Shown: positions 10,431-11,064 of the stretch, one piece after another | Layout: every line of letters starts with the position of its first letter | Numbering within the stretch: the first letter of the stretch is position 1 | Source of the DNA: an uncultured Ruminococcus sp. | GTDB lineage: Bacteria > Bacillota > Clostridia > Oscillospirales > Ruminococcaceae | NCBI GenBank assembly: GCA_945876155.1 | Contig: CAMCMW010000016.1 | Coordinates: forward strand, 1-11,954 | Length of the DNA: 11,954 bases | Reading direction: 5' to 3' | Program-made: the position numbers and the translations under genes | The notes under the pieces: generated by a model | What the model was told of the DNA's origin: nothing | Seen by the model: only the letters and a program-made list of their open reading frames with translations | The model's database searches: none

Positions 10431-10459
10431 TTGACATATTTTCAGTCATGGTGTATAAT
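10431..10459 (+). promoter_or_regulatory. Promoter of antisense RNA 1
   Basis: TTGACA (10431-10436) and TATAAT (10454-10459) are both perfect sigma-A hexamers with the optimal 17-bp spacer. The expected start is near 10466. The -10 region and everything downstream to 10496 is repeated exactly at 10788-10835. Confidence 0.93.
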
Positions 10460-10496
10460 AATAAAAAAGTGGACACACCGATAGACGGTTGCTCCC
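10449..10496 (+). repeat. 48-bp direct repeat, copy 1 (antisense RNA promoter and 5' end)
   Basis: Bases 10449-10496 are identical to 10788-10835, covering the -10 hexamer, the start site and the first 30 or so bases of the small RNA up to GCTCCC. The copies are 339 bp apart. Confidence 0.95.
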
Positions 10497-10551
10497 TCAT
10501 AATTGGTTAATAAACCGCTTAGGTTGGAAGCTGTGGGCGGTTTATTTTTTT
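10466..10551 (+). ncRNA. Candidate antitoxin RNA 1 (about 85 nt, antisense to peptide 1 mRNA)
   Basis: A consensus promoter and an intrinsic terminator delimit an RNA of about 85 nt. It has a small 5' hairpin (ACCG-ATAGA-CGGT, 10477-10489), then a conserved TGCTCCC (10490-10496), then the terminator stem. It has no ribosome site or credible reading frame. Its 3' part converges with the minus-strand mRNA of the 25-residue peptide, whose stop codon lies in the terminator stem, so the two transcripts share antisense overlap. This matches RatA and other type I antitoxins in layout. The antitoxin role is inference. Confidence 0.75.
10509..10551 (+). terminator. Intrinsic terminator of antisense RNA 1
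   Basis: AATAAACCGC (10509-10518) pairs perfectly with GCGGTTTATT (10537-10546), an 18-base loop lies between, and a T-run continues to 10551. It may also end read-through from the gyrA operon. The stem also forms in the opposite transcript, but without a good U-tract on that side. Confidence 0.92.
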
Positions 10552-10619
10552 ATATTCTTGATAACATTATCCAATGCAACAAGAATAAGGACAGCAAGAA
10601 TCAGATAAATCAGATCCAT
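10542..10619 (-). CDS. Candidate type I toxin peptide 1 (25 residues, hydrophobic)
   Basis: The minus strand encodes a 25-residue peptide beginning MDLIYLILAVLILVALD and ending in a basic KNIKK tail. A single hydrophobic helix followed by lysines is typical of type I toxins of Gram-positive bacteria, which insert into the membrane. The ATG at 10619 follows a strong GGGAGGTGA ribosome site six bases away. A perfect sigma-A promoter lies about 115 bp upstream. The 5' leader is long for such a small gene and can pair with the ribosome site. The TAA lies in the terminator stem of the convergent plus-strand RNA. I do not recognise the family. The reading-frame call is well supported; toxicity is inference from architecture. 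A non-toxic small membrane peptide is possible. Confidence 0.75.
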   Translation of the reverse strand: MDLIYLILAVLILVALDNVIKNIKK

Positions 10620-10627
10620 GACTATCA

Positions 10628-10693
10628 CCTCCCTTGCCTTCTTATTTCGCCTGCCCGTAAGGGGACGAGTAAGTAGGTTATGGCAAATGGAGG
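10628..10693 (-). promoter_or_regulatory. Predicted Shine-Dalgarno sequestration in peptide 1 mRNA
   Basis: In the minus-strand RNA, CCTCC-AT-TTGCC (complement of 10682-10693) can pair with GGCAA-G-GGAGG (complement of 10628-10638). That gives two 5-bp helices with a small internal loop and buries the ribosome site. Another small hairpin (CCC-TTAC-GGG) lies between. Hiding of the ribosome site in the full-length mRNA is known for several type I toxins; here it is a prediction by eye. Confidence 0.5.
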
Positions 10694-10697
10694 AAAC

Positions 10698-10763
10698 AAC
10701 CGCCTACCGTTTTAGGTATGCCCATAGAGTAAATTATACATTATTCTGCAAAATATGTCAATA
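10698..10763 (-). repeat. 66-bp direct repeat, copy 1 (peptide mRNA promoter and leader start)
   Basis: Bases 10698-10763 match 10999-11064 with one difference (A at 10728, T at 11029). The block holds the minus-strand promoter and the first 30 or so bases of the leader, including CATACCTAAAACGGTAGGCG, which can fold into a small hairpin (TACC with GGTA). Confidence 0.95.
10733..10761 (-). promoter_or_regulatory. Promoter of peptide 1 mRNA
   Basis: On the minus strand TTGACA (10756-10761) and TATAAT (10733-10738) are perfect hexamers 17 bp apart. The start is expected near 10726. Its -35 lies 8 bp from the -35 of the divergent plus-strand promoter at 10770. Confidence 0.93.
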
Positions 10764-10769
10764 AAAAGC

Positions 10770-10798
10770 TTGACATAAAAAATGAAGTGGTGTATAAT
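10770..10798 (+). promoter_or_regulatory. Promoter of antisense RNA 2
   Basis: TTGACA (10770-10775) and TATAAT (10793-10798) have a 17-bp spacer. The promoter is back-to-back with the peptide 1 promoter. The -10 and downstream bases repeat those of antisense RNA 1 exactly, whereas most of the spacer differs. Confidence 0.93.
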
Positions 10799-10835
10799 AA
10801 TAAAAAAGTGGACACACCGATAGACGGTTGCTCCC
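10788..10835 (+). repeat. 48-bp direct repeat, copy 2
   Basis: Identical to 10449-10496. The two RNAs diverge immediately after the GCTCCC that ends the repeat. Confidence 0.95.
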
Positions 10836-10894
10836 ATAAAAGTAGGTTAATGAATAACCGCCTTAGTTTGGTCGCTGAGGGCGGTTATTTTCTT
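10805..10894 (+). ncRNA. Candidate antitoxin RNA 2 (about 90 nt, antisense to peptide 2 mRNA)
   Basis: It has the same architecture as RNA 1: identical first 30 or so bases with the ACCG/CGGT hairpin and TGCTCCC, then a unique middle, then a terminator. The terminator stem spans the stop codon of the convergent 27-residue peptide gene. An open frame from a GTG at 10808 has no ribosome site and is not conserved in copy 1, so this is treated as non-coding. Confidence 0.75.
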
Positions 10895-10896
10895 TT
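10853..10896 (+). terminator. Intrinsic terminator of antisense RNA 2
   Basis: AATAACCGCC (10853-10862) pairs perfectly with GGCGGTTATT (10880-10889), followed by TTTCTTTT. Position and function match the copy 1 terminator, but the loop sequence differs. Confidence 0.92.
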
Positions 10897-10968
10897 ATTG
10901 CCGTTTTGACATATCTGAATGATATTGCAGACAACAAGTGCCAGAGTAAGGAAATCGTTCCATGTCAT
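10885..10968 (-). CDS. Candidate type I toxin peptide 2 (27 residues, hydrophobic)
   Basis: The minus strand encodes 27 residues beginning MTWNDFLTLALVVCNIIQIC and ending in a polar, basic QNGNKRK tail. It has one hydrophobic helix and two cysteines. The ATG at 10968 lies nine bases after an AGGGAG ribosome site. A second ATG five bases downstream is out of frame and gives a non-hydrophobic product, so it is rejected. The promoter and early leader are nearly identical to those of peptide 1, yet the peptide sequence is clearly different. As with peptide 1, the stop lies in the terminator stem of the convergent RNA. The architecture supports a type I toxin; toxicity itself is inference, and I recognise no family. 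Confidence 0.72.
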   Translation of the reverse strand: MTWNDFLTLALVVCNIIQICQNGNKRK

Positions 10969-10976
10969 GGCAAATC

Positions 10977-10992
10977 ACTCCCTTCCGGGAGC
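10977..10992 (-). promoter_or_regulatory. Hairpin over the ribosome site of peptide 2 mRNA
   Basis: In the minus-strand RNA GCTCCC-GGAA-GGGAGT forms a 5-bp stem (six with a G-U pair) closed by a GGAA loop, a GNRA tetraloop. The 3' arm GGGAG is the Shine-Dalgarno sequence itself, so the hairpin would hide it. Confidence 0.65.
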
Positions 10993-10998
10993 AGGATT

Positions 10999-11064
10999 AA
11001 CCGCCTACCGTTTTAGGTATGCCCATAGTGTAAATTATACATTATTCTGCAAAATATGTCAATA
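10999..11064 (-). repeat. 66-bp direct repeat, copy 2
   Basis: One mismatch to 10698-10763. It carries the promoter and leader start of the peptide 2 mRNA. The similarity stops abruptly after TGTCAATA. Confidence 0.95.
11034..11062 (-). promoter_or_regulatory. Promoter of peptide 2 mRNA
   Basis: On the minus strand TTGACA (11057-11062) and TATAAT (11034-11039) are perfect hexamers with a 17-bp spacer, identical to the peptide 1 promoter. The start is expected near 11027. Confidence 0.93.

Follow-up and report, generated by a model that had tools for sequence, protein, structure and literature searches.

Tandem convergent RNA and peptide genes downstream of gyrA-type genes in a Ruminococcus genome: candidate type I toxin-antitoxin cassettes

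In the window, by which we mean the whole 11,954-nucleotide stretch of DNA analysed here, two adjacent units each direct a short plus-strand RNA gene against a minus-strand gene for a small hydrophobic peptide, raising the question of whether the RNA controls the peptide and by what means. Read from translations, the gene order is dnaA-dnaN-recF-gyrB-gyrA-type genes, a 152-amino acid open reading frame, the two units (10431-11064, hereafter cassettes) and a sigma-factor-like gene. A small hydrophobic peptide gene overlapped by an antisense RNA gene is the anatomy of a type I toxin-antitoxin system, and for brevity we refer to the peptides as toxins and to the RNAs as antitoxins, both roles being putative.

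Layout of the two cassettes

In both cassettes a promoter and RNA on the plus strand face, on the minus strand, a promoter with its leader and a short frame (Table 1). A first-pass annotation of this DNA had described four perfect TTGACA-17-TATAAT promoters of alternating direction, and each does match at 12/12 positions, with starts at 10431 and 10770 on the plus strand and at 10761 and 11062 on the minus strand; a promoter scan of a 2355-base stretch returned 10 sites of at least 9/12, compared with 4.6 (sd 2.3) in shuffles. The 48-bp and 66-bp repeats that it listed are also real: the longer (66 nt, 98% identical with one base different, 301 apart) is a stretch of the two toxin promoters and leaders, and the shorter (48 nt, 100% identical, 339 apart) lies within both plus-strand RNA genes. 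Folding recovers the two terminators that had been placed over the opposing stop codons, since both plus-strand RNAs form a 5' hairpin and a 3' terminator (z -1.98 and -2.33) and the 3' arm of each terminator covers the stop codon of the facing frame; a simple terminator scan listed only the second of the two. The T tract of the RNA 2 terminator lies opposite the codons for the basic tail and the stop of peptide 2, and the ribosome site of the toxin mRNA 2 leader is predicted to pair with GCTCCC (10987-10992). Toxin peptide 1, which can alternatively be read as 28 amino acids from a GTG, has a homologue in the corresponding array of another genome, G001.

Table 1. Predicted features of the two cassettes (window coordinates; duplex energies in kcal/mol)
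Feature	Position	Strand	Basis or remark
Promoter, antitoxin RNA 1	10431..10459	+	TTGACA-17-TATAAT, 12/12
Putative antitoxin RNA 1	10466..10553	+	Start inferred from -10 box; 5' hairpin; fold
Parts of antitoxin RNA 1	Anti-ribosome-site arm about 10485-10508; terminator 10509-10546 with T tract	+	Arm duplex -11.0
Putative toxin peptide 1, MDLIYLILAVLILVALDNVIKNIKK	10542..10619	-	25 aa; stop codon within RNA 1 terminator
Leader, toxin mRNA 1	10620..10726	-	Ribosome site AGGGAGGTGA (about 10624-10634); sequence, fold
Promoter, toxin mRNA 1	10733..10761	-	12/12
Promoter, antitoxin RNA 2	10770..10798	+	12/12
Putative antitoxin RNA 2	10805..10897	+	5' hairpin; fold
Parts of antitoxin RNA 2	Anti-ribosome-site arm about 10824-10847; terminator 10852-10890	+	Arm duplex -14.0
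Putative toxin peptide 2, MTWNDFLTLALVVCNIIQICQNGNKRK	10885..10968	-	27 aa; pN/pS 0.19 in group of 18
Leader, toxin mRNA 2	10969..11027	-	Ribosome site AGGGAGTGA (about 10975-10984); sequence, fold
Promoter, toxin mRNA 2	11034..11062	-	12/12

An array 3' of gyrA is present in three genomes (G000, G001 and G008) and absent in five for which 1.5 kb downstream could be inspected; two further stretches were cut and one genome gave no gyrA match. The array of G001 holds three cassettes, among them relatives of both window peptides in a changed order, and that of G008 holds one cassette and one RNA without a toxin. Around the sigma-factor homologues of 10 other genomes, no gyrA match was found within the stretch fetched. 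On these counts, we rejected a conserved neighbourhood for the cassettes.

Recurrence, peptide frames and one-way co-occurrence

Neither window peptide has a match in Pfam, NCBIfam or PADLOC, and Rfam has no match in the window; a further Rfam comparison gave 11 matches at E ≤ 10, all under the gathering score (best E 0.13). No model in these four collections names the window's copies. BLAST of the region found further cassette copies in its own genome, and those copies gave more. From 11 own-genome copies of the plus-strand RNA we built a covariance model, R1, which finds 13 places in that genome at E ≤ 2e-11 (11 of the 13 being in the model) and 22 at E ≤ 1; RNAs 1 and 2, themselves model members, score 72.5 and 87.7 bits, respectively. 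The first-pass annotation had proposed a search of relatives, and in a set of 120 genomes, the own one included, 64 match R1 at E ≤ 0.01 and 32, counted from the listing, have a best E ≤ 1e-6, with up to 31 matches per genome and several of these in tandem arrays. Of 11 genomes in the window's genus, 10 have between 1 and 19 R1 matches, each of them a potential site of a membrane-toxin gene. Across a phylum-wide sample, 14 of 299 genomes (own included) match at E ≤ 1e-5, and a convergent frame was called by script, without a control, in 11 of 18 places, of which one looks spurious; one place is of the same order. A 25-base toxin-leader pattern occurs in 29 stretches of named genome contigs, whose titles are without exception Ruminococcus, Oscillospiraceae, Clostridia, Clostridiales or Ruminiclostridium, and in two virus contigs. 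Phage and plasmid records, searched for distant DNA similarity, yielded no cassette match.

Several of these copies have settings worth recording. In both virus contigs (L071:5119-6360 and L070:317-4384) the cassette adjoins frames whose translations look like tail or tape-measure genes. On L017 (G000:C9), cassette clusters occupy both contig ends (900-1870 and 13516-14000) with housekeeping-type genes between them, and G008:C125 carries cassette clusters in a neighbourhood that looks like that of L017. On L120 (G006:C92:6600-11000), eight R1 matches at E ≤ 1e-4 fall within 4.4 kb; they point either way and are accompanied by several types of toxin. A near copy of cassette 2 (L002:694-974) lies directly behind a frame that by eye resembles a P-type ATPase, and a 36-nt stretch with an 89% match to the toxin promoter region (L004:1471-1506) lies just 5' of an unrelated secreted-protein-like frame.

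We next consider whether the facing frame recurs with the RNA. Removal of duplicates from 176 R1 matches (148 + 28) left 165 distinct places, 161 of which were followed by 200 nt or more. When a strict ribosome site is required, a convergent hydrophobic frame is found at 110/161 RNA places, compared with 0/161 on the plus strand, 3/154 upstream on the plus strand, 33/154 upstream on the minus strand and 2/161 in shuffles; the high upstream minus-strand count reflects, we think, tandem neighbours. With a looser ribosome site and a tighter position the count, window included, is 125/161 (shuffles 2.0; plus strand 3). The 25- and 27-codon frames that the first-pass annotation had seen converging on the RNAs exist in the window, and their convergent layout recurs at these places. 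In these 125 cassettes, a toxin promoter of at least 10/12 is present in 104 (5/125 when shuffled), the stop codon falls at the identical offset of -13 from the RNA end in 77, and the peptides are 20-36 amino acids long (median 29), with at least two K/R among the last five residues in 117.

That relatives should conserve the frames had likewise been put forward, and we calculated pooled pN/pS values with the last five codons excluded, bearing in mind that the pairs are not independent. For the group that includes window peptide 2 (18 sequences, 61 pairs) the value is 0.19, and on these comparisons the group is under purifying selection, making a firm case for peptide 2 as coding sequence. Three other groups give 0.28 (16 sequences, 49 pairs), 0.16 (6 sequences, 6 pairs) and 0.27 (6 sequences, 4 pairs), and a divergent group 0.60 (14 sequences, 15 pairs). 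For window peptide 1 the value is 0.21, from a group of four sequences and two pairs, one of which includes the window itself; that pair has 5/17.8 synonymous and 5/54.2 nonsynonymous changes, and it is peptide 1's presence in a single pair that counts against the toxin reading. Peptide 1 is thus a likely coding sequence for which the evidence of selection is thin.

If the two genes are toxin and antitoxin, the RNA may outlive the toxin while the reverse should not occur. Toxin leaders found by pattern alone have an RNA opposite (R1 E ≤ 0.01) in 30/30 cases, with three more cut by the locus end, and distinct matches to a leader model do so in 62/62, with three cut (150 of 154 matches used); the pattern-only count is the fairer test because many of the leader-model loci had been fetched via the RNA. 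By contrast, 36/161 RNAs have no recognised toxin frame, which by itself also weighs against the pairing that we favour. On reading these sequences, we found that in at least eight the tail of the toxin gene alone is left (L104:1854, L108, L112, L113:731, L116, L013:1900, L114:760 and L130); among the remainder, some show a frame-shift in the tail and some match R1 weakly. RNA kept and toxin lost, never the opposite, is the pattern expected of a toxin and its antitoxin. At three of these loci (L013:1900-2150, L113:731 and L104:1854), another dispersed palindrome-like repeat (GGGCTGTCGAGGGCGCC, GACGTCCCG) replaces the toxin half and leaves the RNA intact.

Together, recurrence, selection on the peptides and one-way co-occurrence make type I pairs the best reading of the cassettes, as the first-pass annotation had suggested, with the selection firm for peptide 2 and thin for peptide 1. 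The arrays, the RNAs with decayed toxins and the phage-tail neighbours would allow roles in addiction, phage exclusion and cross-protection to be tested.

Two predicted pairing sites and shared 5' ends

The energies whose calculation the first-pass annotation had proposed distinguish two regions of complementarity between the RNAs. At the terminators, each window antitoxin is predicted to pair with its own mRNA at -86.5 or -88.8 kcal/mol, compared with -43 and -48 across cassettes, and the terminators alone discriminate between the two cassettes. Changes in the terminator stem are compensatory at 7/14 predicted pairs in a model-free alignment of 11 sequences and at 11/11 pairs in a model-fitted alignment of 148, which leans towards the model. 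The loop of this hairpin could be parsed in 151 of 160 cases: on the antitoxin strand it carries YUNR in 137/151 (shuffled 97.5, maximum 111) and TTGG in 84/151 (shuffled 20.0, maximum 30), and on the toxin strand YUNR shows no excess (88/151 compared with 91.2 in shuffles). Because the sequences counted are related, the shuffles overstate the significance of both the loop counts and the arm energies given below. As a terminator the shared hairpin appears asymmetric, with at least five T of eight on the antitoxin strand in 88/104 and at least four T of eight on the toxin strand in 31/104, counts without a usable background control; with a toxin-strand terminator that appears weak, transcription of the toxin mRNA may continue across the antitoxin gene, which weighs against the two-site scheme set out below.

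The second region lies at the toxin ribosome site. Toxin leaders (n=104) fold at -21.5 kcal/mol compared with -16.2 in shuffles, and their ribosome site is paired at 0.83 of positions, or 0.66 with the upstream leader shuffled. Across 104 cassettes, antitoxin nucleotides 19-42 are predicted to pair with toxin positions -22..-1 at -14.3 kcal/mol, compared with -9.7 for a shuffled arm, while the neighbouring parts of the RNA give -6.4 (nucleotides 1-18) and -7.0 (nucleotides 43-60) against the ribosome site. Mismatched cassettes reach -13.45, and 0/5000 permutations attained the matched mean. After collapsing to 56 representatives, the arm gives -13.39 compared with -12.84 permuted, with 3.3% of permutations as good. 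The arm thus appears to fit ribosome sites across the family and its own site slightly better, a weak locus specificity that counts against the scheme, as does the stronger predicted pairing of window RNA 1 with the ribosome site of toxin 2 (-15.0) than with its own (-11.0).

Where this arm comes from is suggested by the 5' ends. The two predicted RNAs of a cassette begin with one sequence in the same sense, a feature that is new here. Over 56 representatives, local alignment of the first 38 nt of the RNA with its own leader scores 21.98 compared with 15.48 permuted, and that of the first 20 nt alone 17.46 compared with 10.61, and 0/20000 permutations reached either score; a toxin-leader model built without any antitoxin nevertheless matches 15 antitoxin 5' ends. 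Inverted repeats in the DNA give sister RNAs, and hence the antitoxin would hold the very arm that hides the toxin ribosome site in cis. Selection, gene conversion and recent duplication are candidate reasons for the likeness. The shared 5' ends suggest that an antitoxin can arise simply, when the promoter and leader of its toxin are copied in inverted orientation. Complementary 5' ends of the Fst type were also considered and rejected, there being no antisense signal (11.8 for own, 11.4 for other cassettes). Individual antitoxin 5' ends fold well (-10.4 compared with -5.7 in shuffles, 150 sequences), and consensus folding of the first 11 RNAs found no common one-register 5' hairpin.

Mechanism, known systems and competing explanations

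We therefore consider how the parts would work together. The minus-strand mRNA would encode a membrane peptide of 25-27 amino acids with a single helix and a basic tail, presumably the toxin, behind a leader in whose fold the ribosome site is masked by a CTCCC-type arm. The RNA from the plus strand, about 90 nt long and presumably the antitoxin, would meet this mRNA at two sites. At one, the terminator hairpin of the RNA is perfectly complementary to the stop-codon region of the mRNA, and the U-turn-type loop of this hairpin may start the pairing; at the other, the 5' part of the RNA, which carries a copy of the leader's anti-ribosome-site arm, would pair with the toxin ribosome site and prevent it from opening. 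A shared terminator, a second region and a leader stem are used by par_pAD1 as well, and it is for this reason that we propose a par/fst-like mechanism. On this evidence each unit is probably a convergent type I toxin-antitoxin cassette that follows the two-site logic of par/fst with a different toxin, and the facing RNA very probably silences the peptide gene. Promoters, recurrence, purifying selection, complementarity and one-way co-occurrence are what the DNA itself supplies to this proposal, and we infer transcription, pairing in the cell and toxicity of the peptide.

As excerpted from PMC7472228, par_pAD1/Fst (Fst/Ldr family) shares with the cassettes convergent promoters, a short antitoxin RNA, a shared terminator hairpin, complementarity in a second region, at the ribosome site of the toxin, concealment of this site by a leader stem and a membrane peptide of about 30 amino acids with a charged tail; pairing there starts at the shared terminator, the second region closes the initiation site, and not every par homologue has a U-turn motif. 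The cassettes differ in that their repeats are inverted in the DNA and give sister RNAs, whereas the repeats of par are direct and give complementary RNAs (same excerpt). They also differ in the U-turn motif, enriched in the antitoxin loop and not in the toxin loop, and in the weak toxin-strand terminator, and the PXXXG(C) motif of Fst occurs in 0/125 cassette peptides, so the cassette toxins are not Fst. Overlap of toxin mRNA and antitoxin at their 3' ends is common to the cassettes and to txpA/RatA and bsrG/SR4 of B. subtilis, but the latter have complementary stretches of 100-140 bp and decay of the toxin mRNA, and the txpA/RatA loops lack a YUNR motif (excerpt of PMC6562991). In yonT-yoyJ/SR6 of B. 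subtilis the antitoxin 5' part also pairs with a toxin ribosome site, but the target is a second toxin gene and not, as in the cassettes, the same mRNA (same excerpt of PMC6562991). Convergent C. difficile pairs (CD2517.1-RCd8 and others) likewise overlap and have small hydrophobic toxins, although these are 50-53 amino acids long and the complementary region is long, according to the part of PMC6563280 available. Cassette anatomy is closer to par/fst, with a closed ribosome site and a shared hairpin, than to txpA/RatA, with its long 3' overlap and decay, and in this respect we modify the txpA/RatA likeness drawn by the first-pass annotation. The cassettes are best described as a candidate type I variant whose anatomy is par/fst-like, whose toxins fall outside the known models, which forms arrays in the Ruminococcus group and whose two RNAs have sister 5' ends; in open-access literature, with subscription papers mostly outside its scope, no title or abstract start among the matches listed deals with type I systems in Ruminococcus or Oscillospiraceae.

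A cassette might instead work in the manner of txpA/RatA, the 3' overlap alone mattering, RNase III cutting the duplex and the 5' arm being left over from an event that duplicated the toxin promoter and leader in inverted orientation. The perfect 3' complementarity, the weak locus specificity of the arm and the same-sense homology of both 5' ends, which fits a duplication, all agree with this, and RatA and SR5 are said in the excerpted part of PMC6562991 to cause decay only; nonetheless, over 104 cassettes it is the arm that is strongly complementary to the ribosome site and not the neighbouring parts of the RNA, and we regard this manner of action as unlikely.

The other alternatives concern the peptide. 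Chromosomal arrays beside housekeeping genes and many copies per genome would suit small regulatory or signalling membrane proteins held under antisense control and multiplied for a physiological role. Such proteins would not lead one to expect leaders that never occur without the RNA (30/30; 62/62) alongside RNAs with decayed peptide genes, nor copies that adjoin phage-tail-like genes, nor the weak similarity of some cassette peptides to Hol_Tox, and we consider this explanation improbable. That the cassettes are a mobile or self-copying, MITE-like repeat, selected for its promoters and inverted repeats with the peptide incidental, draws on the inverted repeats around promoters, the many copies and the tandem arrays. 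This idea is disfavoured by the purifying selection on the frames (pN/pS), and with ribosome sites that recur we give it very little credence.

Returning to the type I reading, the first-pass annotation had supposed that the toxin family may be new. The want of Pfam, NCBIfam and PADLOC matches for the window peptides agrees with this, but because peptides of other cassettes resemble Hol_Tox weakly and below the cut-off, the family may be a distant Hol_Tox branch rather than wholly new. PF16935 (Hol_Tox) matches 16 of 59 diverse cassette peptides (chosen from 112 distinct) at E ≤ 0.1, best 0.001, though all bit scores shown, 12.3-17.8, are under the 23.3 cut-off; five of the 59 match the holin family PHROG 3488, best 5.5e-5. 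TxpA itself probably resembles Hol_Tox.

It is conceivable, although we hold this with less than even confidence, that there is a type I superfamily, present in the phylum beyond the class, in which the antitoxin is a same-sense sister of the toxin leader and supplies in trans the inhibitor that the leader supplies in cis; the locus-specific hairpin and the ribosome-site-blocking arm with which both transcripts begin would owe their continued likeness to selection or gene conversion. If true, this could also provide the missing antitoxin for part of the Hol_Tox genes. Searching by protein model alone, we obtained 40 Hol_Tox loci from 43 matches in 26 genomes (20 of 199 from the phylum set and 6 of 147 from the order set), three of the loci being under the cut-off. 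Two results weigh against the preferred reading here: when the own genome was searched for Hol_Tox at E ≤ 1, the single match lay elsewhere and none of the cassettes was hit, and 11/40 loci have no convergent R1 match at E ≤ 1. The cassette design is present in at least part of the Hol_Tox loci. A convergent R1 match lies at the toxin 3' end in 29 of the 40 loci at E ≤ 1, in 16 at E ≤ 0.01 and in 10 at E ≤ 1e-3, and similarity between the leader and the downstream region exceeds 50 shuffles in 6/39 loci when compared directly and in 12/39 in the same-sense comparison, one locus being too short.
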